Virus record (IMG/VR): IMGVR_UViG_3300032342_000081
Location: 1-21,364 of that record
Length of the DNA: 21,364 nt
DNA from: a virus
Direction: 5' to 3' (one strand)
Below are positions 9,101 through 21,339 of this stretch, piece after piece (position 1 is the first letter of the stretch; the number at the start of each line of letters is the position of its first letter). Both the position numbers and the translations under genes were made by a program. The notes below the pieces were generated by a model, which saw only the letters and a list, made by a program, of their open reading frames with translations, ran no database searches and was not told where the DNA came from.

Positions 9101-9398
9101 TATCTACTACAACCGTTCTTTGGTCAACTGGCAAAGGATTGTCGGTTGTTATAAAGAAAGATGTACTAAGTGATTGACTAGCCCAAGATGCTGATATTGC
9201 TGCATTAGCGAATGTGGTTGGTGGTGGATAAAGAGTATAAAAAGACGCAGATTTATCGGCATTTAAATTTCCCGAAGCATCAATATGAAGAATTACTTCG
9301 GATGCCGAAATGTGAGTTTCACCATAATACGTATTTGTGGCATCACGTTGTAAAATTACAACATCTTTCGGCTGTGGATTTGTATTAGTAATCGGCAT
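3126..9398 (-). CDS. Giant modular tail fibre: LamG x2, six kelch blades, Ser/Ala shaft repeats
   Basis: A 2090-residue protein, approximate residues given. Residues 1-210 form an N-terminal attachment region containing a DGNxxLP-type phrase (DTTARDAIPLGDRYLGLRVW). Residues 220-500 form a LamG/concanavalin-like jellyroll, with LWYRAD, VRFDGTND and GYLAWKYGL as landmarks. Residues 510-810 are Ser/Ala-rich shaft repeats based on SASWAS and SASFAS. Residues 855-1130 are a second LamG-like copy (VWLRGDD, VHFDGTNDR, GYLAWKYAL). Residues 1200-1420 form a region with TPTALLHLAGG and PEAGVVEFNTDKWF, known from phage fibres. Residues 1455-1760 hold six kelch-type blades, five with FGG and the last with YGG. 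More SAS repeats follow at about 1850-1965, then a beta-rich C-terminal domain of about 120 residues. A good ribosome site (AAAGG) lies 7 bases upstream of the ATG. It follows the gp15-like gene. LamG and kelch folds commonly bind glycans, so host surface recognition is the likely role. Confidence 0.9.
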   Translation of the reverse strand: MPITNTNPQPKDVVILQRDATNTYYGETHISASEVILHIDASGNLNADKSASFYTLYPPPTTFANAAISASWASQSLSTSFFITTDNPLPVDQRTVVVDTTARDAIPLGDRYLGLRVWVTNDSKEYTLIGGTNNAFWQQTPISASFAQNSYFSVTASHALNGGGGGSNLVGSNNYVGYWWNNVPTTGSLIYVNDDNVGINTPNPIANDTFTITEVSNSNVLWTPTLLGSDSPRLWYRADAITDISASLLNLWPDSTPNLNHATASAATSRPVLVYNVLNGYPAVRFDGTNDQMRCLVPTSVSCSALTAFVVAKVTSYAPTVTNANVGTIFGNSHVGNNRDIVVGERFDGGTSRFTWTLHTEDAVSSFDTETPINPYNAKTGEWYINTVIVNGGASSTTIYLSGSASGSGVSAQSTNLDLKDLCIGWESSSNQPFNGDIAEIIIITSSISAGDQSRVEGYLAWKYGLVQSLPTAHTYKTSMPIPLGGGNIQVWKDINRNVVGFFSGSGILYATSSFAISASWAPGSAGSSTSASWASQSLSSSQAISSSYALTASSAVNAYQAVSASWAPPLPSDYAISASWASESFWASSASFASSSLFARSASWASKSFSADTASWASQSLSSSNSLTSSFALTASFATNLNPNAVSASWASQSLSSSFAITASFSLNVNPNALSASWASASFVATSASFASRSFFSTSASFASVSISASWAPPIPSDFAVSASWASESFWATTASFASKSFISVTSSFASKSFAADSASWASRSLSASFAISASWSPPQFNSFAESASWASFSLSASWAPTFGIVGTNNYLPKWQNNSLTETSSVFDTGVGVGIRATGSQIDATLTVKAFSSSSNILWSPFYATVPMRVWLRGDDITGSQSSSVSLWPDTGSYGNYFTQSTAGNQPALYTSSINGHSVVHFDGTNDRLSAISGSTSISQSSLCVFAVVKPQTFPVSPSAFSNGTVIANGHSGNSRDFTLGPRIFSGVPEWNMYNESGTTTYDINALANISRSWYIVNGNVNSNNSILTVYINNAATSSGVVNGSNDMDLRDLFVGFEPNFGQPFSGEIAEIIITNQNISSDEQRKMEGYLAWKYALTSSLPLDHQYINVAPYVLDSSTIQSWKNFTSDTVAFVSSSGLYFGTASWAYNSTSASWAPPSGVTAFSISSSWASQSLSSSYAVTASYALIAIGPGTPKYFTTWVTSGSLSDTSSLYETGSKVGLGTIAPSGSLTIFLSNTNAFTTATDHITLVNPSLTGQTHITSIISGSNSLAGRWRTDYLKQVVYVSYANAVSAGHYFLVNGDTDVGSTKAKITIGGIRIGQNVVSDTPTALLHLAGGDGTATRGQMKWDSSTLLTVPEAGVVEFNTDKWFCTINTGTARKEFAINDITMPSGSVVVTTTNGRLTVVTGSGVWNITSSYSTSASFSNNTTITWPIPGWYQLQLSESRLGATARTASSTFYGAAGAMVSGTVYVFGGYSGAAALGTIWTSSVGDGGQITVATGKTLPIPVLQTNCIRLGNSLYLFGGAIDNVGTPTSSIQTASLDDPTTWVATGSLPFNLSNHNTVVINDNQELWIFGGLTSSGSAVFSASLYATASNPLSWSIVPVTWFGGGGYQSTIAGNAAVLGDKICAFGGFNGSGFNNVNTSVYTSSVQNPSAWGVANIGINPGCAYINNSGVVIGNYYYNFGGYNGSIISSKINRAQISNPGGYASTLFSNSFNDHSQVAIVSGSKLLLYGGFTSTGSIATNRIQSASILDLGVQALADETTVFQNMSWSYAANYFLPSITQSMSASWAVNSSMSLFVNINLATGSSIYYIPFVTGSGFQRLYIDSGSNLTYNPATDAITVPAVSSSLFGTASWALNTLNVLQAVSASYASFAQLAFIATSSISASWASASLFASFAISASFASQSISASWAPPVPSDYAISASFASESFWATSASFASRSISSSFSSVALSSSYAVTASWVPIGRSVVLCSAFSPTTTGGDAAEVIVPFNPQNNTVISWSVKRLSIRAQSVESITSSINIEKSSVVGAFSASLIGSVSLPSSSYENYATGTFTTTVSGDKLRFNVTTLGTAQNWTVIAELSNA
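3495..3850 (-). repeat. Ser/Ala-rich shaft repeats near the fibre C-terminus
   Basis: A second, shorter block of SASWAS/SASFAS units (about residues 1850-1968), directly before the C-terminal domain. It contains a cassette PPVPSDYAISASFASESFWA that is nearly the same as two cassettes about 3.6-4 kb away in the main block. This suggests internal duplication. Confidence 0.75.
6985..7845 (-). repeat. Ser/Ala-rich shaft repeats inside the fibre gene (main block)
   Basis: This is the coding region for fibre residues of about 515-810. The protein consists of units starting [ST]-[AS]-S-[FW] and typically running SASWASxSL or SASFASxSF. Many units are 6, 9, 12 or 15 residues long, interrupted by longer loops with NPNA or PPxPSDYA. 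At DNA level this gives many imperfect copies of gacttgcccaagatgc and similar words on the plus strand. It most likely forms an elongated trimeric shaft between globular domains. Confidence 0.8.
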
Positions 9399-10434: not shown

Positions 10435-10818
10435 TTACTTTTTATACACCAGCGAACCTTCATATTCTGGATGTTCAACAAATCCATTCTTCTTGTAGAA
10501 GTTGATTTGTTCTTCGGTGTTACCGTCGTATCCACCCGGTTCAACTAAAATATTTGCGTCAGCGTCTTGTTTAAGAACTTCCGCCACAGCTTTTTGTAAT
10601 AGATAACTTCCAATGCCTTGCCCCCTAGAATTTCTATCACCAACCAATGCTCTTGCCACCCACCACCTATTACCGTCAATCCTATCTATACTTACAACCG
10701 AATTTCTTGTGGGACCAAGACCCAATCTATGCATAATAGATACACTTTGAGAGGTAGATAATACAGTTATATCTTTTTCTTCAATTGTTTCAAAAATTAA
10801 CTGTTTAAGTTTAATCAT
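10435..10818 (-). CDS. GNAT-family N-acetyltransferase with capsid-targeting-like N-terminus
   Basis: 127 residues from the ATG at 10818, chosen over an ATG 9 bases upstream because it makes an ATGA overlap with the preceding stop and begins with the shared peptide MIKLKQLIFE. The acetyl-CoA binding motif A is clear: SRGQGIGSYLLQKAV (R-x-x-G-x-G), preceded by a WWVARALVGD beta strand. The late GNAT segment INFYKKNGFVEH is also present. The protein is near minimal length for a GNAT domain. The substrate cannot be read from sequence. It sits between the neck genes and the gp15-like gene. The first ten residues end in I-F-E, matching the T4 prohead protease rule, so the mature protein would start at about Thr11. 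A packaged, injected acetyltransferase acting on a host protein or small molecule is my inference. Confidence 0.82.
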   Translation of the reverse strand: MIKLKQLIFETIEEKDITVLSTSQSVSIMHRLGLGPTRNSVVSIDRIDGNRWWVARALVGDRNSRGQGIGSYLLQKAVAEVLKQDADANILVEPGGYDGNTEEQINFYKKNGFVEHPEYEGSLVYKK

Positions 10819-11174
10819 GTTCCCCAATTTGCTAGAGCATTTTTCAATTCGTTACTATTCATTGGTTCAAATTCATCGCCTTGTATATGTGCATACCATT
10901 GACCATGTTCATCATTATAATAAATTGAATCATCCATTCTTTTTTTATTGGCCAACATCCACGTATTTTTTGCATTAAGCGGCGACATTCCAACGACTGA
11001 TATTCCAGTACCTCCATGATGAATTGATACAATATCTTTTGGGTCTTCGTTGCGTTTCATGGCTGTAGCACTAAGATAATGAAGAACTCTAATAACATCA
11101 TCTGGAGTACCTGATTTTGAATGCCAACGATACGTAGGGATTCTTGCTTCTATTAAAGTCTTTAGTTTAATCAT
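10815..11174 (-). CDS. Small protein of unknown function with MIKLKTLIE start
   Basis: 119 residues, starting MIKLKTLIEARIPTYRW. I do not recognise the rest. It is soluble and mixed alpha/beta, with SIHHGGTGISVVGMSP (about 50-65) and a C-terminal region around YNDEHGQWYAHIQGDEFEPM followed by a short helix. The start overlaps the stop of the gp14-like gene as ATGA, and its own stop overlaps the start of the acetyltransferase gene in the same way, so the three genes are translationally coupled. The N-terminal L-I-E fits the [LI]-x-E prohead-protease rule, leaving a product of about 110 residues. I infer a packaged internal protein. A reading as an ordinary neck accessory protein cannot be excluded. 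Confidence 0.75.
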   Translation of the reverse strand: MIKLKTLIEARIPTYRWHSKSGTPDDVIRVLHYLSATAMKRNEDPKDIVSIHHGGTGISVVGMSPLNAKNTWMLANKKRMDDSIYYNDEHGQWYAHIQGDEFEPMNSNELKNALANWGT

Positions 11175-11644
11175 ACTTGTCTTTCTACAAGACTCAATTT
11201 ACTCAATCTTGCGTAATGAGTGTTTACAATTATTGAAAGAGATTTATCAGAAATACCTCCAAGAAATTGTTCTTGAACTACATTATCAATCTCATGATAT
11301 CGTTTATTAAATTCTACGATATCACCAACCTCCGGATACAAATTGACAAGTTTCAAGTTATCTTCTCTAAATTTGAATACAACAGTTTGATTTCTGTCTG
11401 GACCAAATTCATCAAAGTTAGTATCAATATCAGCGCGGTCAATAAGACAGGTGCATTCAACTCCGGGATAAAATACTTTACCAGATTTTGGGTCTGATTC
11501 ACCATAAATATTGATTCTGGTTTGGTCTGCACAAATCTTATAGATAAAGACTTCTGTTTGAATGATATCGCCCATCAACTCTGCATTTATGGAGTTGATG
11601 AACTTTACATCCCTATCTGAAAAATATCTTCCTAGTTTTCCCAT
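11171..11644 (-). CDS. gp14: Neck protein, T4 gp14-like
   Basis: 157 residues from the ATG at 11644 (MGKLGRYFSDRDVKF). An upstream in-frame ATG at 11713 would add 23 residues but would overlap the preceding gene by 65 bases. The ATG at 11644 lies 4 bases after that stop and is preferred. Features recalling T4-like gp14 are the early helix with AELMGDIIQTEVFIYKI, a beta strand with TVVFKF, and the phrase YPEVGDIVEFNKRYHEIDNV followed by QEQFLGG. The last phrase parallels gp14 GDLIYFPMDNSLFEINWV. T4 gp14 is about 256 residues, so this is a short form. In T4, gp13 and gp14 form the neck that seals the filled head and accepts the tail. Order between gp13-like and gp15-like genes supports the call. 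Certainty is moderate. Confidence 0.55.
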   Translation of the reverse strand: MGKLGRYFSDRDVKFINSINAELMGDIIQTEVFIYKICADQTRINIYGESDPKSGKVFYPGVECTCLIDRADIDTNFDEFGPDRNQTVVFKFREDNLKLVNLYPEVGDIVEFNKRYHEIDNVVQEQFLGGISDKSLSIIVNTHYARLSKLSLVERQV

Positions 11645-11648
11645 AAAA

Positions 11649-12128
11649 TTATCGGTCAAAGTCTCTATCATCATCCCTATCTTCGTCATAATCTGGCTCA
11701 GCATCAAAATCAATGGAATTCAATATTTTATCTTCTATATCAGATTGATTTTTGTTCACATACTGTTCTACATAGACTCGCAAAGGTAATAGTTGTTCTG
11801 GTGTCAATTTGGCTACATCCCACTCTACTTCTTGTCCCCTTTCATCTGTGACTTTCATTGAAACAGGATATTGTTCAATAATATCTACCGATGCTCCCTC
11901 TCCCGGATAACAATTCTCAGGCGGTCCATAAGTTTTTCCCTCACAACCACCATCAGCTTCATATCCAATGGTTATATTGATTAATACATAATCACCCATA
12001 TTTACAATGCCCGGAATTGCTAAGTCATCTACTTCAATTTCGTAGTCTTCGTATTCACCACTAGCACCACTTTGTCTTTTACGAATTTCTTGTACAATTT
12101 CTTTTATTAGTGATTTTTTTCTTTTCAT
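11649..12128 (-). CDS. Acidic-tailed protein of unknown function with MKRKKSLIKE start
   Basis: 159 residues. A basic N-terminus, MKRKKSLIKEIVQEIRKRQ, is followed by an acidic stretch EYEDYEIEVDD (about 25-36), then a beta-rich middle containing GDYVLINITIGYEADGGCEG and PPENCYPGEG. A predicted helix follows around LTPEQLLPLRVYVEQYVNKNQ, and the tail, PDYDEDRDDDRDFDR, is very acidic. No family is recognised. The N-terminus is a diverged version of the shared peptide and ends in I-K-E, so a prohead-protease cut after residue 10 is plausible. AGGA lies 4 bases before the start. It begins 1 base after the stop of the gp13-like gene and ends 4 bases before the gp14-like start. A packaged internal protein or a neck accessory are both possible. 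Confidence 0.75.
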   Translation of the reverse strand: MKRKKSLIKEIVQEIRKRQSGASGEYEDYEIEVDDLAIPGIVNMGDYVLINITIGYEADGGCEGKTYGPPENCYPGEGASVDIIEQYPVSMKVTDERGQEVEWDVAKLTPEQLLPLRVYVEQYVNKNQSDIEDKILNSIDFDAEPDYDEDRDDDRDFDR

Positions 12129-12129
12129 A

Positions 12130-13347
12130 TTATCCTATGTAAATGAATAATGGAACCCGTTTCAATGTTTCCATCATTTGTTCTGATTGTAAGGCTTGAT
12201 TTTCCATTTGTTGTTTTTGACTTGTAGCTAGAAGCGATTCTCTGAGTTGTGTAATCAAATCGGTTTTTTCTTGTTGGGCTTCGCTTCTTAATTCTGCACC
12301 ATCCAAAGTAACATCACCACCCGGGATAGGAAGAGTTTGATACTTTTGACGAATAGCACCAAGAAGTTCCTTACATACAGCCAAGAAATATTTACGAATC
12401 CATTGCCTACCAACAGAGTTTAATGTATTGTAAACAACGTTATTATAGGGAATGTTAGCATAGTCAGCAACGTAACTACCTGTGTAGTGTGGGTCGCCGC
12501 CTGAGTTCAATGAACCACTTAATCTATCTTCCCTCAACATATAGTCAAAATAAACATTAAATCCATACGTTGGAATTGGAAACAATTTCAATTTGTTATT
12601 TACCAACTCAAATGAATATGCGCTTTTACGAACCATGTCATTAAACTCAATTGCTTGCATACGAAGCAAATCTTCAAAAATCGGAGTCATGAGAAATTGA
12701 ACCGCAGGAGAATATGCACCAAATCCTAATTCATTCAATACATTTGAATAACTCATACCCGTCATAGAAAAGGGGTCATAGACACGGGCGGAAGCAGGAG
12801 CCCGTTCATGGAATATCCTCATTACTTCAATTCTATTACAATTTTCCACTTTATCCCCCCACAAAGCTTGTAAATCATACGTTTGTTGATGAGGATACGT
12901 CGTAATGAAACCTTTTTTCCAATCTGCATATCCACCAACACCAACTTCTCTACCATATCCCTTGGCAAGTTCTATTATGTATGGTAGTGTAGTTCCGGTT
13001 ACGGCTTTACCTGTAAGATTTCCCAATGCTGTAACTTTTTGTCCTTGAAATACTTGAAGGTAATTTTGAATATTCATCTGATTGACTTGAGCTGAATATT
13101 CATTTACCGATTCTTCATAGGCAGCATAGAAATTTACATCTAAAAGTTCAATGTCAATGACAGGATACCCAAGTCTGTATGCAGCCCAAATGGCCGCCGC
13201 TTGTGCATCGGCCTGAAACATGAAATCGTTGTCGTAAAAGCCGAATGGCGTTTTACCTACCACCGACGAACCGCTGCCGGGCCATCTTACACGGTCTTGG
13301 TCAACTAAAGTAGTTGGATTGGTTATTGGTTGTGTTACGTCGCTCAT
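12130..13347 (-). CDS. gp13: Neck protein, T4 gp13-like
   Basis: 405 residues from the ATG at 13347 (MSDVTQPITNPTTL). A GTG 9 bases upstream would add three residues, but nothing favours it. The recognisable region is residues 45-90: AAIWAAYRLGYPVIDIELLDVNFYAAYEES followed by VNEYSAQVNQ. I associate this pattern with the neck protein gp13 of T4-like environmental phages (a head-completion fold with an acidic helix that engages the portal). The rest includes IEVMRIFHERAPASARVYDPF, a block LKLFPIPTYGFNVYFDYM typical of virion proteins, and a C-terminal helix rich in Gln and Glu. It is longer than T4 gp13 (about 310 residues). It is the first gene of the leftward operon. The call rests on pattern memory plus gene order with gp14- and gp15-like genes. 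Confidence 0.55.
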   Translation of the reverse strand: MSDVTQPITNPTTLVDQDRVRWPGSGSSVVGKTPFGFYDNDFMFQADAQAAAIWAAYRLGYPVIDIELLDVNFYAAYEESVNEYSAQVNQMNIQNYLQVFQGQKVTALGNLTGKAVTGTTLPYIIELAKGYGREVGVGGYADWKKGFITTYPHQQTYDLQALWGDKVENCNRIEVMRIFHERAPASARVYDPFSMTGMSYSNVLNELGFGAYSPAVQFLMTPIFEDLLRMQAIEFNDMVRKSAYSFELVNNKLKLFPIPTYGFNVYFDYMLREDRLSGSLNSGGDPHYTGSYVADYANIPYNNVVYNTLNSVGRQWIRKYFLAVCKELLGAIRQKYQTLPIPGGDVTLDGAELRSEAQQEKTDLITQLRESLLATSQKQQMENQALQSEQMMETLKRVPLFIYIG

Positions 13348-13369
13348 AAAAATCACATGTATCTATCTG

Positions 13370-13377
13370 AATAAATA
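13370..13377 (+). promoter_or_regulatory. Candidate late promoter (AATAAATA) for the rightward operon
   Basis: AATAAATA fits the NATAAATA late-promoter consensus of T4-like phages. It lies 36 bases upstream of the ATG at 13414, in the 66-base divergent region, and a start site about 6 bases downstream would leave a leader near 30 bases. Chance occurrence in AT-rich DNA is a real alternative. Confidence 0.4.
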
Positions 13378-13402
13378 TAGAAACTGATAGTGTTTATGCT
13401 TA

Positions 13403-13410
13403 TATTTATG
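13403..13410 (-). promoter_or_regulatory. Candidate late promoter (CATAAATA) for the leftward operon
   Basis: On the minus strand this reads CATAAATA, again NATAAATA. It lies 55 bases before the gp13-like ATG at 13347. Together with the plus-strand octamer at 13370-13377 it makes a face-to-face pair whose predicted start points nearly meet. Confidence 0.35.
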
Positions 13411-13413
13411 TCC

Positions 13414-13806
13414 ATGATTAGCCTTAAAAGAATTATAAATGAAATTATGGAAGCATTACCTCCGATACCTCCTGCACCGCCGGCTATAATACAACAAGTT
13501 CCTTCCGTCAACACAAATGCTATTGCCGATGCTATTTATGTGGCAGAAGGCGGTAAGAAAACAAGGTTTCCATACGGAATATCTTTGAAAAAGTCAGGAA
13601 TTCAAACGGCAGATGAAGCCGACGCTAGAAAAATTTGTCTAAATACGATATCACACGCACTTAATGATTGGAGGGTTAGTGGTTCAAAAGGAAACTTCAT
13701 AGATTTTTTATCACTGAGGTATTGTCATGAAAATCATAAGAACTGGGCAAAAATGGTAAAATCCATCATGATAAAACAGAAAAAAGAAAAAGAAGCCAAG
13801 AAGTAA
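13414..13806 (+). CDS. Small lysozyme/transglycosylase-like protein with capsid-targeting-like N-terminus
   Basis: 130 residues from the ATG at 13414, chosen over an upstream GTG at 13390 because it begins with the shared peptide (MISLKRIINE). A proline-rich linker follows (about 15-30), then a compact domain with IADAIYVAEGGKKTRFPYGI (37-56), ARKICLNTISHALNDW, FIDFLSLRYC and HKNWAKMV. I have seen this arrangement (AEGG...PYGI...FIDFLxxRYCP...NW) in small phage proteins that look like degenerate lysozyme or transglycosylase domains. Glu45 is the candidate catalytic acid. The C-terminus is lysine-rich. It is the first gene of the rightward operon and its stop is 1 base before the next start. 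If packaged, it could help DNA or protein delivery across peptidoglycan. The enzymatic call is tentative. Confidence 0.6.
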   Translation: MISLKRIINEIMEALPPIPPAPPAIIQQVPSVNTNAIADAIYVAEGGKKTRFPYGISLKKSGIQTADEADARKICLNTISHALNDWRVSGSKGNFIDFLSLRYCHENHKNWAKMVKSIMIKQKKEKEAKK

Positions 13807-13807
13807 T

Positions 13808-15601
13808 ATGTTAAAGGAAACCGAAAAAAAGATAAAACTCGGACTTAAGAAATTACAAGCCATCACAGGATTTGTAAACGATTCTTTTGATATAATAGCA
13901 TCCGATGAACTTTCTCGTCACGATGATGTTTTGAGTCGTGGTCAGGGTTATGGTATTACTGCCAATGATAATAGATGGCGTTATCATTATGACGATGAGA
14001 TTGTAAGATGGTGGGAACTCATCCCATCTGAAAAACAGAGATTTGTAGTTGAAGAATTCCTAAAATACCAGTATAATGTTAAGGTGAAACGCCATGTTTT
14101 ATACGGACAGTCACAACCGGAAGACTTTGGCGGAAACAAACTTATGGAAGAAATTAAACAGTTGATTAAAGAAGGCGTCAAAGAAAAAGCGTTGGAAGAC
14201 TTTATCAGTAAGACTATTCGGGGAACTGAATGGCACGGTAAGGTATTCATCGCCGGTGGATATGTCCGTGATGAGTTCATGGGCAAAGACCCAAAAGACC
14301 TTGACTTGTTGGTAAACGCTCCAAATGGCGGAATCGAATTTGCCAAGTGGATTACCAAAAAAGTAGGAGCTTACAGAGGCGGGGCTAACGAAGAAGACCC
14401 CGGCTCTAATCCTGTAATCTTCCCAAGATTTGGCACAGCGAAGTTTAATCTTCGTGGTGTTGTTCACAATGGTATTGACTTATCCGATATGGATATTGAG
14501 TCTGTAATGCCACGTAAAGAGGAATACACAGCAGGTTCAAGAAAGCCTACCGTAACAGGTGGAGAATTGAAAGATGACGTTGAACGTAGAGACTTTACCG
14601 TTAATAGTCTATTGAAAGACTTATCAACGGGAGAAATCCTAGACCTTACAGGAATGGGCAAGGCTGACATTCAAGCTGGAATCGTCAGAACCCCTCTCAA
14701 TCCTGACAAAATTTTCACGGATGACCCACTTCGTATGTTGCGAGCAATTCGATTTGCTGTCAAATACAATTGGAAACTTCCAATGTTTATGTTGAGGGGA
14801 TTGAAGAAGAATGCTAATCAACTTCCAAACATTTCTCAGGAAAGAATTCGTGATGAATTGAATAAGATGTTGGTTACAGGCCATCCATCAAAGGCAATCA
14901 AAATGATGAAGGTTACAGGTTTGTTACCATTTGTCATTCCAGAACTTTTGCCTGCCGTCAAGATGGTTCAGAACAAATATCACAAAGCTGATGTGTTTCA
15001 ACACACTCTTGATGTTCTTGGTAAAACCGAACCTGTATTGGTTCAACGTTTGATGGGATTGTTTCATGATATCGGCAAGACGGTTACACGTTCTGTTGAA
15101 CCTGAGACAGGCGGCGTTCATTTCTACGGTCATGAAATGGAAGGTGAGAAAATGGTTGAAGAAATCATGGCTCGTCTAAAATACCCAAGAGAATTGATTG
15201 ACGCCGTTAAGTTGGGCGTTCGTAACCATATGCGTCTAAAGCAGGCAGGTGATGTTGGAATTAAACTAAAAGACAAGACTCTGTTGAAGTTTCGTAATGA
15301 AATGGGCGAACAGTTGGAAAACGTCTTGAACTTGATGCATGCTGATAACATTGCTCACGCCGAAGCGTCATCTATGCCACATCAGATTGCTGGTATTCGT
15401 AAACGTTTGGAGACATTGAAAGATGTTCCTACCAAACCGAAGATGCCTATTTCTGGCTTTGACCTACAAAAAATGGGATTGAAACCCGGACCACTGTTCA
15501 AGGAAATCATTACTGCGGTTACTGATGCTTGGTATGAAAATCCCGGATTAACAAGAGAAGAAGCTTTGGACATTGCTAAAAAAGTAGCAAATATATCATG
15601 A
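13808..15601 (+). CDS. CCA-adding enzyme / poly(A) polymerase-like nucleotidyltransferase with HD domain and extra N-terminal module
   Basis: 597 residues. The nucleotidyltransferase core shows AGGYVRDEF (G150-G151, R154), the metal-binding DLDLL (D164, D166), RRDFTVNSLL (260-269) and DDPLRMLRAIRFA. These are the hallmarks of the tRNA nucleotidyltransferase/poly(A) polymerase family. An HD phosphohydrolase domain follows, with H399, LFHDIGK (H420-D421) and H442. A class II CCA enzyme would restore tRNA 3' ends, and the HD domain in this family has phosphatase or phosphodiesterase activity. Residues 1-112 are an unrecognised module (WRYHYDDEIVRWW). It is joined by MEEIKQLIKEGVKEK (113-127), which resembles the shared targeting peptide and contains I-K-E. 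The N-terminus itself does not fit the MIKLK pattern. The stop overlaps the next start (ATGA). CCA addition versus another nucleotide transfer cannot be decided here. Confidence 0.87.
   Translation: MLKETEKKIKLGLKKLQAITGFVNDSFDIIASDELSRHDDVLSRGQGYGITANDNRWRYHYDDEIVRWWELIPSEKQRFVVEEFLKYQYNVKVKRHVLYGQSQPEDFGGNKLMEEIKQLIKEGVKEKALEDFISKTIRGTEWHGKVFIAGGYVRDEFMGKDPKDLDLLVNAPNGGIEFAKWITKKVGAYRGGANEEDPGSNPVIFPRFGTAKFNLRGVVHNGIDLSDMDIESVMPRKEEYTAGSRKPTVTGGELKDDVERRDFTVNSLLKDLSTGEILDLTGMGKADIQAGIVRTPLNPDKIFTDDPLRMLRAIRFAVKYNWKLPMFMLRGLKKNANQLPNISQERIRDELNKMLVTGHPSKAIKMMKVTGLLPFVIPELLPAVKMVQNKYHKADVFQHTLDVLGKTEPVLVQRLMGLFHDIGKTVTRSVEPETGGVHFYGHEMEGEKMVEEIMARLKYPRELIDAVKLGVRNHMRLKQAGDVGIKLKDKTLLKFRNEMGEQLENVLNLMHADNIAHAEASSMPHQIAGIRKRLETLKDVPTKPKMPISGFDLQKMGLKPGPLFKEIITAVTDAWYENPGLTREEALDIAKKVANIS
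14165..14173 (+). other. Possible internal prohead-protease site I-K-E (residues 120-122)
   Basis: Codons for Ile120-Lys121-Glu122 lie between the unknown N-terminal module and the nucleotidyltransferase core, within EEIKQLIKE, a near copy of the shared N-terminal peptide. A cut here would release the enzyme from the N-module. Predicted only from the [LI]-x-E rule. Confidence 0.35.
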
Positions 15602-17568
15602 TTAATCTCAAATCCATAGTTTTAGAAAATACTCGTATCAATACCTTTAAAAAGGAATTGACCGACCTTATTAAACGGTGGCGTAAATCGCCGGAAGGTG
15701 GGTATGATAAAAAACATCTGATGGATTTAATCAAACTAGCTTTAATAGAAATAGAAAAAGAAAAACACAAATCTCCATCACAAAGAGAATACGAACAAGA
15801 CAAAGAAGAGTTCTTTAATCATCACTACACAGGATTTATTGGGTCTGATGCGTATAAGAATTATGAGAAGGAAGGTGGATTGTCTTGGTTGGGAAGTAAA
15901 TCTAAATACCCAAAACTTTTAGATAGGGGAACATACGGAAATTATGAAGTTGAGTTTAGACAAACAGGAGAAAAAAACCAATATACTCAACACGATGCTA
16001 ATGGTGAAATCGTTCGATACCCAAATGGAGATATAGGATACATGACTCCGGACGAAATTAAAAAAGCAAACCTGCCAGAATATAATACTAGCATTGTAGC
16101 TTTTGTTGGTGATAAACCAATTGGTTTTGCTGGTGATGAGTTTGGAGCTGTTGGAGTGTGGGTTGAAGGTCCATATCAAAAATTGGGAATAGGCACAGAT
16201 TTGTTGGATAAACATATTGAACAAAGACCAACGGTAAAAAGTGGCAGGGGAAAAATAGGTCAGATGACTAATAAAGGTATTTCCATGACCAAAAAATATT
16301 ACGATTTGATGGCAAAAAGACATGGAGTAAATTGGTTTCAAAAACTAAAACAAAAACAACAAAATATAAAGGAAAGTTTTGAAGACCGAACGCCACTCCA
16401 AATTGATACGGAGAAGTTTAGGAAATCCTTAATTCAAAAATATCCACAGTTGGAGGATTTGTATTTTTACATTTCTGCTGACCGTTCATTATATCTAAGT
16501 TCTATTAGAGTTAAATTAGAAGACCGACATATGGGAGTCGGAGGGTCAGTAATAAGAGACATTAAGAAATTTGCAGATGACAGAGATTTAGTCATTACTT
16601 TATCACCAGAAGCAAAAAGAGGTTATACAAAAAAGTTGGATAGATTTTACAAAGATTTGGGATTTGTGAATAATAAAGGAAGAAAAAAAGATTATAGCCT
16701 TGGTGGTTTTTCCGGTCGTATAATGTATAGAAGACCTAAAATAAACGAATCATTCAAACTTGCTCCTAACGTTGACAGTCAATCTGAGATATTAGCTAAA
16801 TTTATCGCATCGTTCTTTTTGAAATATTTTGAAACGAGAGTGCAAAACTCCAAGACAAAAACTGACCATGCGATTGTAAAATATAATGAGTATTACAAGT
16901 TAGCTAAACAATATAGAGATGAAGGAAAGAAATTATTCAAAACTATGAGATGTGAAGAAGATACCAATTGGGGTCAGGCTTCTCTACGAGTATATCCAAC
17001 GTCTGGTGTAGATGGAAAATTTATAATGCCTGATGTAATTTTGAAAATTACAAATGGATATACAACATCAAATGGTGGATATGTGGTCCATTCAAAATCT
17101 CCACAAGATATTTACATTTTGGTCAATAGACACAGTTTTATACATTCATTTAAGAAATCTACAGAAGAATTAACGGATACAATAAAACATGAAATTAGAC
17201 ACGTACAACAATTTAGTGATAATATTGGATTTCCTAAAACTAAAGTATTAAGTAAGACGGCGGATGTTTTGGGATTTAGAAATATTCATGGATATAATGC
17301 TAGAGAAAGGCATCATATGCGTGATGTTGAATTTAAGACCAATCTTTACAGTTATAAATTTCACATTGAAAAGTTTTTGAATCGAAGTTTTCCATACAAA
17401 CAATGGAAGGAAAAATTCAATGATATAGTTACAGGTAAACCAATTTACACAGGCATTGATACTTTGGAAACTATCATTGATAATTTAGAACACATGAAAA
17501 ATAAAGACTTCCCACGGTGGAAATTATTCACCAAGGAATTATACAAACTAATTTTTCCAAATGGATAA
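15598..17568 (+). CDS. GNAT-GNAT-zinc metallopeptidase fusion with capsid-targeting-like N-terminus (likely polyprotein)
   Basis: 656 residues, starting MINLKSIVLENTRI. Domain 1 (about 100-250) is GNAT-like: TSIVAFVGDKPIGFAGDE, then the acetyl-CoA loop PYQKLGIGTDLL (Q-x-x-G-x-G). Domain 2 (about 265-380) is a second GNAT-like domain: SSIRVKLEDRHMGVGGSVI (R-x-x-G-x-G analogue) and RFYKDLGFVNN. Domain 3 (about 386-656) carries a zincin motif HEIRH at 531-535 within DTIKHEIRHVQQF. Glu578 in MRDVEFKTN is a plausible third ligand. The linkers hold NIKESFED (cut after E259) and KINESFKL (cut after E384), both I-x-E-S-F and both at domain boundaries. I infer one packaged precursor yielding three mature proteins. 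The start overlaps the preceding stop (ATGA), and its stop overlaps the next gene by 8 bases. Substrates are unknown. Confidence 0.82.
   Translation: MINLKSIVLENTRINTFKKELTDLIKRWRKSPEGGYDKKHLMDLIKLALIEIEKEKHKSPSQREYEQDKEEFFNHHYTGFIGSDAYKNYEKEGGLSWLGSKSKYPKLLDRGTYGNYEVEFRQTGEKNQYTQHDANGEIVRYPNGDIGYMTPDEIKKANLPEYNTSIVAFVGDKPIGFAGDEFGAVGVWVEGPYQKLGIGTDLLDKHIEQRPTVKSGRGKIGQMTNKGISMTKKYYDLMAKRHGVNWFQKLKQKQQNIKESFEDRTPLQIDTEKFRKSLIQKYPQLEDLYFYISADRSLYLSSIRVKLEDRHMGVGGSVIRDIKKFADDRDLVITLSPEAKRGYTKKLDRFYKDLGFVNNKGRKKDYSLGGFSGRIMYRRPKINESFKLAPNVDSQSEILAKFIASFFLKYFETRVQNSKTKTDHAIVKYNEYYKLAKQYRDEGKKLFKTMRCEEDTNWGQASLRVYPTSGVDGKFIMPDVILKITNGYTTSNGGYVVHSKSPQDIYILVNRHSFIHSFKKSTEELTDTIKHEIRHVQQFSDNIGFPKTKVLSKTADVLGFRNIHGYNARERHHMRDVEFKTNLYSYKFHIEKFLNRSFPYKQWKEKFNDIVTGKPIYTGIDTLETIIDNLEHMKNKDFPRWKLFTKELYKLIFPNG
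16366..16374 (+). other. Predicted prohead-protease site I-K-E|S-F between GNAT domains 1 and 2
   Basis: Codons for Ile257-Lys258-Glu259, followed by Ser-Phe, after a Gln/Lys-rich linker. This matches the T4 prohead-protease rule [LI]-x-E and resembles the N-terminal site I-I-E-S-F in the protein encoded at 19981. Confidence 0.45.
16741..16749 (+). other. Predicted prohead-protease site I-N-E|S-F between GNAT domain 2 and the zincin
   Basis: Codons for Ile382-Asn383-Glu384, followed by Ser-Phe, directly after the last predicted strand of the second GNAT domain (GRIMYRRP). It has the same tripeptide plus S-F context as the first linker site. Confidence 0.45.
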
Positions 17569-18823
17569 ACTAATAAACATACTATTTGAGAGTTTAGAGG
17601 ATAGAGAGAAAAATATCCAAAAATGGCTCGATAATTTAATAGATAATGCGCCCGGTAAAGATAGGGGTGAGAAACTTCAATATCTGTGGGATAAAGACCC
17701 ACGGTGGGGTAAAGTTGTTAAGGCTTTGCGTAATTTCAATAGATACAAGCCACCACATCCAGAAGCTTACAAGGCAAAATTTCAAGCCGACCATTACTAT
17801 GTTCGATTTGGCGACATTCCAAAAAGTGGTAAATCTTCAAATCATGTAACCGGTGGATTTGAAAAAGGAATAAGTGCGTATCCTGTGAAGTGGAATACTA
17901 AACGTGGTATGTGGGAATTGGATACAAGTCAGTTAAGTGATATAGGATTGAATACTTTGGATAGTTTGATAGGAGACTTTTTTGATAAAAAAGGAAGACC
18001 CATTTATTTGATACAAGGTCAATCGTTGGAAGATTTGGGTATTCATGATGATGAACCACTTTTGGACTTGAATAAAATCAAAGTCATCAAAAAATTGAAT
18101 CCAGAAGAAATTTGGATTGAACATTATGGAGGCAATGATTGGGGTAACATTGATGAAGTAGTTGGTAAGGTGTTTCTAAGAGAAAATATTGAGTTTGATA
18201 AAGGAGACACAGTAATGAGGATACAAACACCAAAGGGTGAGTATCGTGTCAGAGTTTTTAAGTTTGTAAGGGATGGGATTGTCAAATACAACTATGATAT
18301 CAACTCTCCACCCGACCATTATGCAGACTATCATGGCAAAAAGATTGGTGTAGGTGGAACGGTTCATTTGGGGCCAGCTAGCACAAACGCAGAACAGATA
18401 TATGCTGCGTTAGCAGAACAGTTGAAAAAACTAGGCCTTCCTTATACTCAGGCCTTGAAATTGAAGGTGGTTGATACCAATACTCCTGAGAATAAGGCGT
18501 TCTTGGATAAATTGGGCACTGTAATAGATGATTTCAAGAAAGAAATGCAAAAGCCAGAAAACCAACCGAAACCATTTGGCGCTGGCCCACCAGAATACAG
18601 TCAATGGATTCGTGGTGAAGATATTAAGAATGGTAGAGTAAAATGGGTAATAGAGAACTATGGCGACTTCTGGATAGTCATTAAATGGTCGGCGTCTCCA
18701 AGAGAAACCATGAAAGCTAGTGAGTTTTTGAAGAATTACGAACAAATTATATCTGGTAAGAAAGCGAAGGGTGACTATGCTATGGAAGTATTTATAAGAA
18801 ACGAACCATTCAGAGGAATATGA
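17561..18823 (+). CDS. Protein of unknown function, two-part, with MDKLINILFE start
   Basis: 420 residues. The start MDKLINILFESLEDRE is a diverged shared peptide; L-F-E-S at 8-11 fits the prohead-protease rule and SLED echoes the SFED after a linker site in the gene before. I do not recognise the fold. Residues 75-195 contain YYVRFGDIPKSGKSSNH, GGFEKGISAYPVKW, RPIYLIQGQSLEDLG, DEPLLDLNKIKVIKKL and PEEIWIE. That layout vaguely recalls ADP-ribosyltransferase-like domains, which I treat as a guess. Residues 210-420 include GEYRVRVFKFVRDGIVKYNY, YHGKKIGVGGTVHLG, a helix EQIYAALAEQLKKLG and a C-terminal region RVKWVIENYGDFWIVIKW. L-R-E at 206-208 lies between the halves. The start overlaps the preceding stop by 8 bases and the stop abuts the next gene, so it belongs to the operon. 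Function unknown. Confidence 0.8.
   Translation: MDKLINILFESLEDREKNIQKWLDNLIDNAPGKDRGEKLQYLWDKDPRWGKVVKALRNFNRYKPPHPEAYKAKFQADHYYVRFGDIPKSGKSSNHVTGGFEKGISAYPVKWNTKRGMWELDTSQLSDIGLNTLDSLIGDFFDKKGRPIYLIQGQSLEDLGIHDDEPLLDLNKIKVIKKLNPEEIWIEHYGGNDWGNIDEVVGKVFLRENIEFDKGDTVMRIQTPKGEYRVRVFKFVRDGIVKYNYDINSPPDHYADYHGKKIGVGGTVHLGPASTNAEQIYAALAEQLKKLGLPYTQALKLKVVDTNTPENKAFLDKLGTVIDDFKKEMQKPENQPKPFGAGPPEYSQWIRGEDIKNGRVKWVIENYGDFWIVIKWSASPRETMKASEFLKNYEQIISGKKAKGDYAMEVFIRNEPFRGI
18176..18184 (+). other. Weak candidate internal site L-R-E (residues 206-208)
   Basis: Codons for Leu206-Arg207-Glu208, followed by Asn, between the two halves of the 420-residue unknown protein. It fits [LI]-x-E but lacks the Ser that follows the stronger sites, and such tripeptides arise by chance. 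Confidence 0.2.
18812..18817 (+). promoter_or_regulatory. Ribosome binding site deciding the 2H phosphoesterase start
   Basis: AGAGGA lies 5 bases before the ATG at 18823 and only 2 bases before the adjacent ATG at 18820. The spacing favours 18823, which also restores the MINLK start shared with the neighbours. Confidence 0.5.
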
Positions 18824-19569
18824 TGATTAACTTAAAAAAAATGTTGACTGAAAATAGAGACGTATCGGCACGTAAGGGGTGTTTGATGGCCATGTTATCA
18901 GAAGAAGATACGGCCAAAATTCTTAAATTCAGTAAACAATTGATTAACGATGAAGACCTGTATCTTGAAGGTAATGAATATGGTAGAGAAATGGAATCTC
19001 ATGTTACTATTCGTTATGGATTTTTAAAAGATTTGAATGAACTTGATATACGTCAATTGATTCAAGGACAAAAACCATTCATGATGGAAATTTTTGGGTT
19101 GGATAAATTTGCACCACATCCAAGTTATGATGTGGCTGTATTTAAAGTAAACAGTCCTGTATTGAAAAAATTAAACGAATTATCAGGAGCCCATCTGAAT
19201 GAAAGTGATTATCCTGATTATATTCCACATCTTACTTTGGCTTATGTTAAAAAAGGAAAATTCAATCGTCTTAAAGAAGGGTTGAGATTAAATGTTCCTA
19301 TTAAGCGGTTGTGTTATTCACCTATTAGTGGTGGTAAATCATATTTTGATTTGACCGAAGGTAATATCCATCACGACATAGATGGTAAAATTGCACGACT
19401 TGAACAAGAGTGGGATAGATTGGACTCTACGGGTACAGGCACAGCTAGACAACAACAGATTCAACAGGAATTAGGAATGCTTAGAGCCGAAAAAGAAAAA
19501 CAACCATTATCCCCAAGCGACCCTAAATCTAAAGAACTTTGGTCAAAAGTAAAAAAATCCACGTCATGA
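18823..19569 (+). CDS. 2H phosphoesterase (2'-5' RNA ligase/CPDase superfamily) with capsid-targeting-like N-terminus
   Basis: 248 residues from the ATG at 18823, starting MINLKKMLTENRD. Two H-x-T motifs define the 2H fold: HVTIRYG (H60, T62) and HLTLAYV (H136, T138), about 75 residues apart. Family members open 2',3'-cyclic phosphates or cleave 2'-5' bonds, and phage members include Acb1, which degrades cyclic oligonucleotides in CBASS defence. After the 2H domain (ending near residue 180 at SYFDLTE) comes a charged helical tail (IDGKIARLEQEWDRL, QQQIQQELGMLRAEK) of unknown role. The L-T-E at 8-10 fits the prohead-protease rule, and a further L-T-E precedes the tail. The start overlaps the previous TGA, and the stop overlaps the next ATG (ATGA). 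Substrate (RNA end or signalling nucleotide) is undetermined. Confidence 0.83.
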   Translation: MINLKKMLTENRDVSARKGCLMAMLSEEDTAKILKFSKQLINDEDLYLEGNEYGREMESHVTIRYGFLKDLNELDIRQLIQGQKPFMMEIFGLDKFAPHPSYDVAVFKVNSPVLKKLNELSGAHLNESDYPDYIPHLTLAYVKKGKFNRLKEGLRLNVPIKRLCYSPISGGKSYFDLTEGNIHHDIDGKIARLEQEWDRLDSTGTGTARQQQIQQELGMLRAEKEKQPLSPSDPKSKELWSKVKKSTS

Positions 19570-19994
19570 TTAAATTAAAGTCATTACTTAAAGAAATAGA
19601 ATATCCTCTTGCTGGAAAAGAAGACCTTCAATCCTATGGTGGTAATGAAGGTTGGAAAGGAAAGGTTGTGTGGATGACTCCTGATAAATTTTTAAGTCTA
19701 GTCCATCCTCTTCCTGACAGTGAAAATGATGATGAATCCATGAAAAATTTGGAACATAGAATGAGAAATGGTCTTCCTCTTGATTTTTTAGTATTGACGG
19801 TTGATGTGGCAAAAAAGAAAGTTACTGGTCACGAAGGAAGACACCGAGCAACCGTTGCCAAAAAACTTGGTATTGAAAAAGTTCCTGTATTGATATTTAC
19901 TGGTAGTATGTTTAAGAGAGTTCCAAAGTGGAGTCCAGAAGACCATGAGATGATAGATAAATCAGAATTTAAACCTGAATATGATAAAACTTAA
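19566..19994 (+). CDS. ParB/Srx-like domain protein with MIKLKSLLKE start
   Basis: 142 residues from the ATG at 19566, chosen over an in-frame ATG 27 bases upstream because it gives an ATGA overlap and the shared start MIKLKSLLKE. The diagnostic segment is KKVTGHEGRHRATVAKKLGI followed by VPVLIF (residues 85-110). This is the GHxGRHR-type phosphate-binding or nucleotide-binding loop of ParB N-terminal/sulfiredoxin-like domains, preceded by VWMTPDKFLSLV and DFLVLTVDV. Free-standing members include nucleases, ATPases and kinases, and phage examples are mostly uncharacterised. There is no helix-turn-helix DNA-binding domain, so chromosome partitioning is unlikely. The L-K-E at 8-10 fits the prohead-protease rule. 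Its last 14 bases overlap the next gene. Activity is unknown; injected effector by inference. Confidence 0.75.
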   Translation: MIKLKSLLKEIEYPLAGKEDLQSYGGNEGWKGKVVWMTPDKFLSLVHPLPDSENDDESMKNLEHRMRNGLPLDFLVLTVDVAKKKVTGHEGRHRATVAKKLGIEKVPVLIFTGSMFKRVPKWSPEDHEMIDKSEFKPEYDKT

Positions 19995-20394
19995 AGAAAT
20001 TATTGAATCGTTTAATGAACCGATACCGCCTGTTTTGTATCATGCAACGTTTAACGCTCTGGTTCCTAGCATCCAAAAACACGGTCTTATTCCTCATGGA
20101 ACTACTATTAGAAATTTTGATGGTGCGGAGTGGGGAGTGTATTTAAGCGATAATGAATCTTTTGCGGGAAGTATGGTTCAAGCGGGAACAGAAAATGAAG
20201 ATATTCCAGATGAATGGTTGGATGAAGTAGTAATTTGTGTTATTGACACAGGAAAATTTGATACATCAAATCTTGATAAAGACCCACATGTTAATATGTC
20301 GGCAGTAGAAGATGAAGAGTTACCAAAATCATATATCTACAAAGGAACAATCCCAGCATCAGCAATAACAGAAATAAAGGACTTCGTAGAATAA
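19981..20394 (+). CDS. KptA/ADP-ribosyltransferase-like protein with MIKLKEIIE start
   Basis: 137 residues, starting MIKLKEIIESFNEP. The core opens with VLYHATFNALVPSIQKHGLIPHG (residues 18-40), the typical first block of Tpt1/KptA and related ADP-ribosyltransferase folds, with His21 as the NAD-binding His candidate. WGVYLSDNESFAGSMV supplies the second-block Tyr, and a C-terminal SYIYKGTIPASAI closes the fold. The glutamate-rich VEDEEL preceding it may provide the third residue of an H-Y-E triad. Family members remove a 2'-phosphate from RNA using NAD, or ADP-ribosylate proteins or nucleic acids. T4 also packages an ADP-ribosyltransferase (Alt) with a cleaved targeting peptide, so the parallel is close. 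I-I-E at 7-9 followed by Ser-Phe fits the prohead-protease rule. Which reaction it performs is unresolved. Confidence 0.72.
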   Translation: MIKLKEIIESFNEPIPPVLYHATFNALVPSIQKHGLIPHGTTIRNFDGAEWGVYLSDNESFAGSMVQAGTENEDIPDEWLDEVVICVIDTGKFDTSNLDKDPHVNMSAVEDEELPKSYIYKGTIPASAITEIKDFVE

Positions 20395-20415
20395 TCGAAG
20401 ATATTTATACCTATA

Positions 20416-21339
20416 ATGAAATTAAAGACCTTAATCAAAATCAATGAGTGGATTAGTCACGGCCCGGCGGTCAATGGTAATCCTGACTCCAAACTCCGTC
20501 CTATGCCCGGAGGATGGAATGATGATTCACCAAATTGGGATGGTATTGTTGAGGGTAAAGACTGGTTTTGTTACATGGAAGGTAATGATTGGCAAACTAA
20601 ACGTTCTGGCGCCACGGTTTATATCAACGAAGATGATAAACCCCACAAGATTTGGATTAAAATAAAGACGCATAATCTTCGTAAACCCAACGATACCAAT
20701 GAGTCTTACAAGGAAAGAGTCCGTAAACACACAAATAAAGTGGCTAGAACGTGGATGACTGCAGCAAAGAAAATCCATAACAATCCAGATATCAATGAAG
20801 CGGGTAATCCTGTCCCTATAACGTGGAAACAAGCCTTTCGTGAGTCTTTGAAGGATGCAAAGCTTAAAGCGCATCTGGCCGACTGTGGCGAACAAGAAAC
20901 ATCATCTTTGGCAGACCCAGTGAATTTTACACCAAGACTTCAAGAATCCATGCCATACAAAAAAGTTAGTTATTCTGCTGTAGTTTTAGATGATGTTGAC
21001 CAAAAGAAGCTTTTAGAATTTTTCAAGGATAAAATGGATTCAAATTGGAAAGAATTTGCCCATCACATGACTATTAAAATGGGCGAACTTCCACAAGATA
21101 AAAAACAAGATATTGGTAAGAAAGTTCAATTAACCGCTTACGAGTTTGGTAAGTCTGATAAAGCTGTCGCTGTAAAAGTAAGAGGGTATTGGACAACCAA
21201 CGAAGTTGCTCATATCACATTATCAGTAAATACTGCCGACGGCGGCAAACCTGTAGATTCCAATAAAATTGAAAACTGGGAACCACTTCCAAATACAATT
21301 CCTCTAAGTGGAACGGTTACTGAAATTCCTTTCAAATAA
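20416..21339 (+). CDS. Two-domain protein: unknown N-module plus C-terminal 2H phosphoesterase-like domain
   Basis: 307 residues, starting MKLKTLIKINEWISHG. The N-module (about 12-160) is unrecognised; it has WDGIVEGKDWFCYMEGNDW and, at its end, NEAGNPVPITWKQAFRESLKD, a phrase I associate with uncharacterised phage proteins. The C-terminal domain (about 178-307) has two H-x-T motifs, HHMTIKMG (H217, T219) and HITLSVN (H266, T268), followed by DGGKPVDSNKI. This makes it a second, divergent 2H-type phosphoesterase in this operon. Between the two lies TPRLQESMPYKK, where L175-Q176-E177 followed by Ser fits the prohead-protease rule. The N-terminal I-N-E fits too. A 21-base gap separates it from the preceding gene. 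It is the last complete gene before the right edge. Confidence 0.78.
   Translation: MKLKTLIKINEWISHGPAVNGNPDSKLRPMPGGWNDDSPNWDGIVEGKDWFCYMEGNDWQTKRSGATVYINEDDKPHKIWIKIKTHNLRKPNDTNESYKERVRKHTNKVARTWMTAAKKIHNNPDINEAGNPVPITWKQAFRESLKDAKLKAHLADCGEQETSSLADPVNFTPRLQESMPYKKVSYSAVVLDDVDQKKLLEFFKDKMDSNWKEFAHHMTIKMGELPQDKKQDIGKKVQLTAYEFGKSDKAVAVKVRGYWTTNEVAHITLSVNTADGGKPVDSNKIENWEPLPNTIPLSGTVTEIPFK
20938..20946 (+). other. Predicted prohead-protease site L-Q-E|S before the 2H domain
   Basis: Codons for Leu175-Gln176-Glu177, followed by Ser, exactly between the unknown N-module and the start of the 2H domain (YKKVSYSAVVLDD). This is the third domain-boundary site in the operon with the form [IL]-x-E-S. 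Confidence 0.45.

Follow-up and report, generated by a model that had tools for sequence, protein, structure and literature searches.

The internal proteins of T-even phages have only a targeting sequence in common and act against restriction enzymes (PMC3012670, PMC9391042, PMC12373910). The capsid-targeting sequence is 10-20 residues long, and N-terminal propeptides are removed by gp21 (PMC5694885). At least ten ip payloads have been reported, and Ip1-3 block different GmrSD enzymes (PMC12373910). In the window analysed here, the 21,364-base virus record IMGVR_UViG_3300032342_000081 (a fragment, taken at its full length), ten open reading frames (ORFs) begin with ATG and one type of peptide, MIKLKxLLxE. 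For T4, the capsid-targeting sequence that the internal proteins IPI-IPIII share with Alt was reportedly described by Mullaney and Black in 1996 (as cited in PMC5694885 and PMC9391042), and hypervariable T-even ip loci are said to have been described by Repoila in 1994 (as cited in PMC12373910). Judged from sequence, the window quite probably belongs to a T4-like capsid-targeting system in a distant large-phage lineage, with packaged polyproteins.

The likeness to T4 lies in about ten N-terminal residues ending in [LI]xE on otherwise unrelated proteins, in the gp21-class protease and T4-type capsid of the relatives, and in a payload that, with Alt, includes a host-modifying enzyme. The consensus is different (IKLKxLLxE here, TYQEFIAE in T4), the repertoire of this distant lineage is far larger and more enzymatic (23 genes with the core leader pattern defined below in the related contig G002), and fused payloads here have sites at their joints. 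As in the T-even ip loci, diverse payloads have the leader alone in common (PMC3012670); however, the characterised ip payloads are inhibitors in Escherichia phages, whereas those found here are named, often multi-domain enzyme folds. The polyvalent proteins (Iyer et al., 2017, PMC5512222) were predicted to be packaged and injected, are multi-domain and were likened to polyproteins. Their zincin-like, ART, GNAT, NTase, ParB-like and 2H domains overlap with those seen here, but their release was ascribed to embedded zincin domains, in place of a tag and prohead-protease-type joint sites, and the main text of that paper contains neither of the terms targeting sequence and capsid-targeting. N-terminal signals on internal proteins are also known from phage P1, whose DarB has an N-terminal packaging signal (PMC9024508), and from SPN3US, in which 14 cuts were placed in nine proteins, 13 of them removing N-terminal propeptides, mostly long, with cleavage after A-x-E (PMC10052503). 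A payload polyprotein, as predicted here, is not described in the available part of the latter paper. The term prohead protease is absent from the main text of a jumbo-phage survey (PMC7824862). In a literature search that covered subscription journals thinly, no paper was found to combine a capsid-targeting tag with payloads of the polyvalent or polyprotein kind, or to place prohead-protease sites at payload joints. The system is best read as one of the T4 internal-protein kind, greatly enlarged, and its multi-enzyme chains with retained sites look like a new feature.

One leader peptide on unrelated proteins

Eighteen genes were called in the window with a home-made gene caller: leftward fibre and tail genes, a neck protein resembling gp13 (phrog_211), and small genes grouped in a cassette on either side of a divergent gap. 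A first-pass annotation had listed ten shared N-terminal peptides, and all ten are confirmed as starts of ATG-initiated ORFs:

10789-10818, minus strand: MIKLKQLIFE, gene 10435-10818, GNAT acetyltransferase (Pfam Acetyltransf_7 E 2.2e-8, above cut-off)
11148-11174, minus strand: MIKLKTLIE, gene 10815-11174, body of no named family that recurs in relatives
12099-12128, minus strand: MKRKKSLIKE, gene 11649-12128
13414-13443, plus strand: MISLKRIINE, gene 13414-13806
15598-15627, plus strand: MINLKSIVLE, gene 15598-17568; pLDDT (predicted local distance difference test) below 50 at residues 1-10
17561-17590, plus strand: MDKLINILFE, gene 17561-18823
18823-18852, plus strand: MINLKKMLTE, gene 18823-19569, 2H phosphoesterase-like protein
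19566-19595, plus strand: MIKLKSLLKE, gene 19566-19994, ParB_N-like protein
19981-20007, plus strand: MIKLKEIIE, gene 19981-20394, KptA/ART-like protein
20416-20448, plus strand: MKLKTLIKINE, gene 20416-21339, N-terminal domain and 2H-like domain

The bodies behind these peptides had been called unrelated, and they are so in BLASTP at E 0.1, apart from one weak GNAT-GNAT match between the 10435 and 15598 proteins (E 0.031, 30% over 50 residues). The fibre, neck and tail proteins named in that annotation do lack the leader, and the leader genes sit among or beside them, in a late, structural context.

For counting, a core pattern ([LIVM]K.[LIMV][LIVMF].{0,1}E, starting at residues 2-8) was written after inspection of the window and applied to unmoved gene starts only; the nulls were shuffled residues 2-16 and the internal Met codons of the same genes. 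It is found in 8 of the 18 window genes (shuffle mean 0.17) and at 1 of 117 internal Mets (Fisher p 1.7e-7). Seven of the eight matches run through the tag itself, the 11649-12128 gene matches via the next stretch, IKEIVQE, and MDKLINILFE and MKLKTLIKINE fall outside the pattern. Searching IMG/VR with the neck protein gave 312 related stretches, of which 80 were kept. The nearest long relative is G002, a 365-kb contig with a neck protein 83% identical to that of the window, where 23 of 488 genes match (shuffle means 1.38 and 1.55) vs 1 of 1595 internal Mets (Fisher p 4e-14). Counted from zero, these matches start at position 3 (eight), 5 (fourteen) and 2 (one), and the leaders are either short (MIKLKxLLxE) or long (MKKSQLKxLIKE). 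Further such starts, which the first-pass annotation had proposed to look for, are thus present elsewhere. Counts in the other relatives, G001 having a neck protein identical to that of the window, are:

G001 9/24; G003 7/48; G007 12/341; G009 4/195; G010 6/71; G006 3/59
G014 11/298; G015 13/338; G016 11/79; G017 5/80; G012 5/58
G004 5/54; G019 1/49; G018 1/29; G013 0/45

T4 itself has one match among 219 genes in 145 kb, and the pattern is lineage-specific. Spurious leaders occur, for example on the fibre-like G002:299053, and a tblastn search of cultured phages with a 20-residue leader, a query too short to inform, gave no match. The structural arc of G002, picked post hoc, holds 15 of the 23 leader genes vs 73 of the 465 others (p 3e-7). 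Leader-bearing genes lie near the neck gene in G003, L007, L009, L011 and L013 as well, and show no BLAST homology to 13414-13806.

The tag had been described as exchangeable, and clustering of bodies without their first 12 residues, together with direct BLASTP matches, agrees: homologous bodies bear the short or the long form, domains switch partners, and many payloads are confined to one genome. Homologues of the 10815-11174 protein carry the long leader MKKSILKRLIKE in G002:30194 (E 2.4e-7) and a short one in L011 and L013, and the homologue of 11649-12128, G002:11297, carries the long leader MKKEQLKILVRE.

Fused payloads and the sites at their joints

Domains that one phage encodes as individually tagged payload proteins occur joined in a single chain in another. 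These fusion junctions, which the first-pass annotation missed, are the most novel part of the system. In the window they comprise the following features (↓ marks the cut position):

13808-15601, plus strand: fusion protein, N-terminal part (residues 1-122) and CCA-type tRNA nucleotidyltransferase (123-597; PolyA_pol E 2.2e-18, phrog_2244 E 9.6e-56)
14144-14173, plus strand: internal leader copy MEEIKQLIKE↓G, residues 113-122, at the fusion junction of 13808-15601
15598-17568, plus strand: 656-residue predicted packaged polyprotein with leader, GNAT-like part, second GNAT fold and HEXXH (zincin-like) domain
16366-16374, plus strand: predicted cut site IKE↓S after residue 259, aligning to the end of the G002:5322 leader MIKLKPLIIE
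16741-16749, plus strand: predicted cut site INE↓S after residue 384, aligning to the end of the L011:2029 leader MIKLKTILNE
18176-18184, plus strand: possible cut site LRE↓N after residue 208 of the 17561-18823 protein, found by eye
20938-20946, plus strand: predicted cut site LQE↓S after residue 177 of the 20416-21339 protein

The 13808 and 15598 proteins each have at least two domains of disparate activity in one chain. The former has no leader at its own start and a full copy inside; its unfused orthologue in G002 begins MSIKQLILE↓G, and nucleotidyltransferase orthologues retain the tag down to about 40% identity. The internal copy, in the window and at the equivalent places in G003, L007 and L011, has an in-frame ATG, so that internal initiation could give a separately tagged nucleotidyltransferase. 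The parts of the 656-residue protein have counterparts elsewhere as separate, individually tagged proteins: in BLASTP, residues 66-253 match G002:7066, 262-380 the first part of L009:5233 and 387-655 L011:2029. [LIVM]xE sites recur at domain borders inside the 15598, 17561 and 20416 proteins. The domain that begins at LRE↓N follows a GNAT domain after IEE↓G in L009:5233; this site was left out of the counts below. Unfused orthologues of the 20416 protein end at the LQE↓S point, in NFTPRK (L005, L013) or NFTNTV (L009), and fused ones read NFTPR[LI][QG]E↓S before the 2H-like domain, L009 having a separate tagged 2H partner.

The AlphaFold2 model of the 656-residue protein (8 sequences, mean pLDDT 65.4, modest) falls below pLDDT 50 at, among others, residues 1-10, 250-264 and 381-385, which are the leader and both joints; 181 of the 656 residues are this low, and a chance placement of both joints in such stretches has p about 0.08. 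In VIA-align, residues 262-381, bracketed by the two joints, match a GNAT fold, with AcrVA5 as its top row (Z 10.8, rmsd 3.2, 93 aligned) and other GNATs next (Z 8-10); Foldseek alone gave no match to the model below E 0.001. The model of the 307-residue 20416 protein is below 50 at residues 1-47, 56-61, 164-184 and 275-279, with its joint at 177. All three modelled window joints are thus predicted to lie in low-confidence linkers.

Retention of sites was counted in 2509 proteins (310 leader proteins) taken from the window, the contigs of 16 relatives and 17 additional loci. A junction was scored where the body of a tagged protein aligned inside a larger protein, with the query starting at residue 10 or before, more than 45 bits, and more than 40 residues in. 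No rows were removed by hand, identical 40-mers were counted once and near-identical pairs (G004/G006) count twice; starts were shifted to a leader-like ATG for 27 of the 128 leader proteins of a first set, and by the same rule in the full one. [LIVMF]xE ends exactly at the equivalent of the tag end in 26 of 46 non-redundant junctions (1.07 expected, as estimated on the same proteins) and lies within three residues of it in 32 (expected 6.17; none of 100,000 simulations as high). Untagged families have the exact site in 6 of 311 junctions (expected 6.00; Fisher p 1.5e-21 vs tagged), and moving the reference point by ten residues gave 10 of 335 exact (expected 6.35) and 72 within three (expected 42). 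Exact sites remain in 22 of 40 junctions with strict leaders only and in 18 of 38 without the nucleotidyltransferase family. The 26 exact joints represent 21 combinations of upstream and downstream parts, from 19 upstream and 13 downstream clusters. One GNAT end, MYR[RK]P..[NK]E↓, runs into the HEXXH domain in the window, and in G017 a KptA/ART-like domain comes next; where upstream partners differ, the hydrophobic P3 residue and Glu are often all that persists, as judged by eye. Exact-site retention across so many families is hard to explain by shared fold constraints. Three further viral scans added little.

Two long chains from other phages may be set beside these. In the 735-kb phage LR756501 (L258), the nucleotidyltransferase lies within a chain of about 1233 residues (17700-21401) that has MLNE↓A three residues ahead of the extrapolated joint; leader-type starts number 0 of 57 in the 41 kb read. 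Tunturiibacter phage Tunturi_5 (L260) encodes at 10597-14685 a 1362-residue protein annotated as MutT/NUDIX (gp321), adjoining head-tail connector and minor tail genes, with 2H-like, ART-like and GNAT-like domains by eye and SKAAA/KSAA repeats at the apparent domain borders. Perhaps a polyprotein is built here on the same plan, around a different protease motif.

Head protease, capsid protein and payload families

The first-pass annotation had pointed to a gp21-class protease as a thing to seek, and the idea survives that test as far as the relatives show. Peptidase_S77, the family of T4 gp21, is above cut-off in 14 of 19 distinct relative records, G002 included (10 of 12 in one set and 5 of 8 in another, with G012 in both), the G002 gene lying at 342792-343421; the five records without it are 33 to 74 kb long, and the positive controls T4, Microcystis phage Mel-JY01 and Flavobacterium phage immuto all yielded it. 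In the 21-kb window fragment Peptidase_S77 was not found, and no T4-type capsid gene was recognised among its genes. A Gp23-type major capsid protein (MCP) is present in 11 of 12 relatives. Two to four residues into it, 9 of the 11 records have IK[SQ]LL[ST]E (for example SDIKSLLSE), and all 11 keep QLIDE↓A or QLIEE↓A where T4 gp23 reads FLTE↓A, which we take to be its maturation cut site; the equivalent is QLISE↓A in Mel-JY01 and QIVSE↓A in immuto. Both parts of the tag, IKxLL and [IL]xE, therefore recur in the capsid protein. The leaders in the T4 record, MKTYQEFIAE (IPII, IPIII), MELITELFDE (Alt) and MAKINELLRE (gp24), have the same size and ending. A long leader, MKKSQLKxLIRE, stands on small genes near the protease in G012 (16763-18776, on the genes at 16763 and 18285), G004 (46879-47181) and G007 (274387-274698); this is the place of the T4 core genes gp67 and gp68, which suggests that core proteins share the signal.

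Among the payload labels of the first-pass annotation, that of acetyltransferase is borne out by the Acetyltransf_7 match of 10435-10818. The ParB-like and KptA-like labels do have Pfam matches, at E 0.089 and E 0.066 (PTS_2-RNA), which are below the curated cut-offs, and the zincin label comes down to one HEIRH motif at residue 531 of the 656-residue protein. The 18823-19569 protein matches phrog_755 (E 1.2e-11), is at the cut-off for 2_5_RNA_ligase2 and, with 25.4 bits, under that of the anti-CBASS enzyme family Acb1 (PF23474; 27); a PDB sequence search with the 2H protein gave no match. In 20416-21339, phrog_36523 (function not known) covers residues 185-286 (E 5.6e-11), with 2H motifs by eye. 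PADLOC, run on eight window proteins, returned one weak Cas3a2-like match on an HD part, which was set aside. Twenty payloads of relatives include GNATs, an ArdC N-terminal domain (ArdcN, above cut-off in one), Mom, a serine hydrolase and RNase T, with ART-PolyVal (two of the 20) and NT5C/HAD below cut-off; nine of the 20 had no match at E 0.02. Several payloads are RNA-repair or defence-related by family and would act at the onset of infection. A gene of the Mom family (PF25680, E 1.3e-23) at 86532-87077 of G002 has the leader MNLKKLIIE and is possibly a packaged DNA-modification enzyme; G015 has a Mom-family fusion at 248836-250047 with a retained IHE↓G joint.

At the left end of the window lies a tandem trio of fibre-like genes with similar starts (3-869, 873-1949 and 1955-3064), adjoining a 2090-residue Ser/Ala-rich protein at 3126-9398. 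Both scanned members of the trio are assigned to phrog_9600.

Mechanism, alternatives and significance

From the observed starts, domain exchange, retained sites and the relatives' protease and capsid genes we infer packaging, cleavage, injection and a function in the host. The peptide is very probably a targeting peptide, a capsid-targeting sequence of the T4 internal-protein kind that would direct enzymes into the head; the earlier proposal of such a peptide on exchangeable payloads is supported by the main sequence tests. Its removal by the S77 (gp21-class) prohead protease, cutting after [LIV]-x-E so that the tag is lost and the mature enzyme stays in the head, is quite probable, and the payload would then enter the host together with the DNA. 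The payload genes form a shuffled cassette of GNATs, 2H phosphoesterases, HEXXH domain, ART/KptA-like and ParB-like proteins and CCA nucleotidyltransferase. Payloads are also fused end to end and retain [LIV]-x-E where they meet, and a single tagged chain would in this way give rise to several enzymes; that the internal joint sites are cut is fairly likely. We lean, somewhat more cautiously, towards packaged polyproteins, in which one tag imports a multi-enzyme chain and the prohead protease cuts its [LIV]xE joints into co-injected effectors, with evolution switching freely between a single long chain and several separately tagged proteins. With CCA nucleotidyltransferase, KptA-like, 2H and GNAT proteins on board, the head could bring a ready set of RNA-repair and anti-defence tools to the opening minutes of infection.

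Several observations weigh against this account. Six of the relatives' MCPs and a G004 start that resembles terminase are among the pattern counts, and further terminase starts fit a looser pattern. The MCP of G002 and G003 starts MENIKSLLTN, with the Glu missing, and the G002 scaffold-like protein shows just a mild excess of [LIVM]xE (23 vs 16.6 shuffled). No exact site is found in 20 of the 46 junctions and none within three residues in 14, several of the site-less ones deriving from queries with a probably spurious leader. When the test was repeated on nine other records or loci, four junctions turned up, two with a site within three residues and none with an exact one, too few to decide. 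The within-three measure is somewhat raised in untagged families too (61 of 311, expected 40), which makes the exact measure the reliable one. Tagged Mom, serine hydrolase and exonuclease are not obvious early effectors. With up to one mismatch allowed, the late-promoter octamer TATAAATA is about as frequent in the window as chance predicts (49 vs 51.5 expected) and such octamers stand upstream of 0 of 23 leader genes vs 32 of 465 others in G002; of 7 related regions, 5 have them on both strands of the divergent gap before the cassette, which counts little because the regions are homologous. A published virion proteome was sought for the cultured cousins immuto and Tunturi_5, and none was found. 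Core-pattern genes are few in the cultured cousins Mel-JY01 (3/214) and immuto (2/213), whose candidate leader genes are:

immuto 113188-113946: MKKSQLRQIIKE
immuto 109868-110455: MGNLADLLLE
immuto 81525-81944: MKLDLLKKLIKE
Mel-JY01 60339-60926: MIKLKSLLQE
Mel-JY01 60923-61105: MIKLKSLLKE

The tag might target proteins while the internal [LIV]xE sites are uncut fossils of gene fusion, left by read-through leaders. The nucleotidyltransferase fusions of the window, G003, L007 and L011 fit this, since the whole leader survives with its Met, as read-through would leave it, although that Met might be a second start. Many other joints have lost Met and IKLK and kept P3 and P1 (YEDLKE↓I, VVKE↓A, RLQE↓S, TLSE↓A, NIKE↓S), untagged families have no excess at the exact position, and the three modelled joints lie in low-confidence linkers; we regard fossils as unlikely, if still worth serious consideration. 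Cleavage of the joints by an embedded zincin-like metallopeptidase, rather than the prohead protease, would accord with the HEXXH domain in the 656-residue protein and in relatives, and with the zincin-like processing proposed in PMC5512222. The joint motif is, however, that of the leader end and of the conserved MCP site, both of which in T4 belong to the prohead-protease pathway, and 18 of the 23 exact-joint proteins (20 of 26 joints) have no HExxH, so that this route, even granting that the enzyme could act in trans, is improbable.

That the peptide is some other protein signal, such as one for membrane or compartment targeting, unrelated to heads, draws on packaging being indirectly deduced and on the presence of Mom and a serine hydrolase in the tagged set. 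We consider it doubtful, given the similar MCP N-terminus, the [IL]xE ending common to the MCP site and the T4 leaders, and the long form MKKSQLKxLIRE near the protease in G012, G004 and G007. A nucleotide-level feature, serving translation initiation or a recombination hot spot with no peptide signal, would account for A/T-rich starts, which could aid translation, and for the commoner Leu codon CTA (12 of 51 leaders vs 0.07 in G002 genes). Yet the 51 MIKLK leaders are encoded by 21 different 15-mers, with codon use otherwise near that of the genome, which points to selection on the protein, and sites are kept inside proteins far from any start; a nucleotide-level origin is largely refuted and very improbable.

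If the capsid-targeting interpretation is correct, a ten-residue tag would make the injected effectors of a large, mostly uncultured group of phages readable from sequence alone, and the long-standing puzzle of what proteins enter the cell when a phage first meets it would come down to a list that can be tested. The prohead protease would gain a role in processing effector polyproteins, and the joints would offer a rule on where to put cut sites in enzymes that are to be carried as cargo in phage heads.

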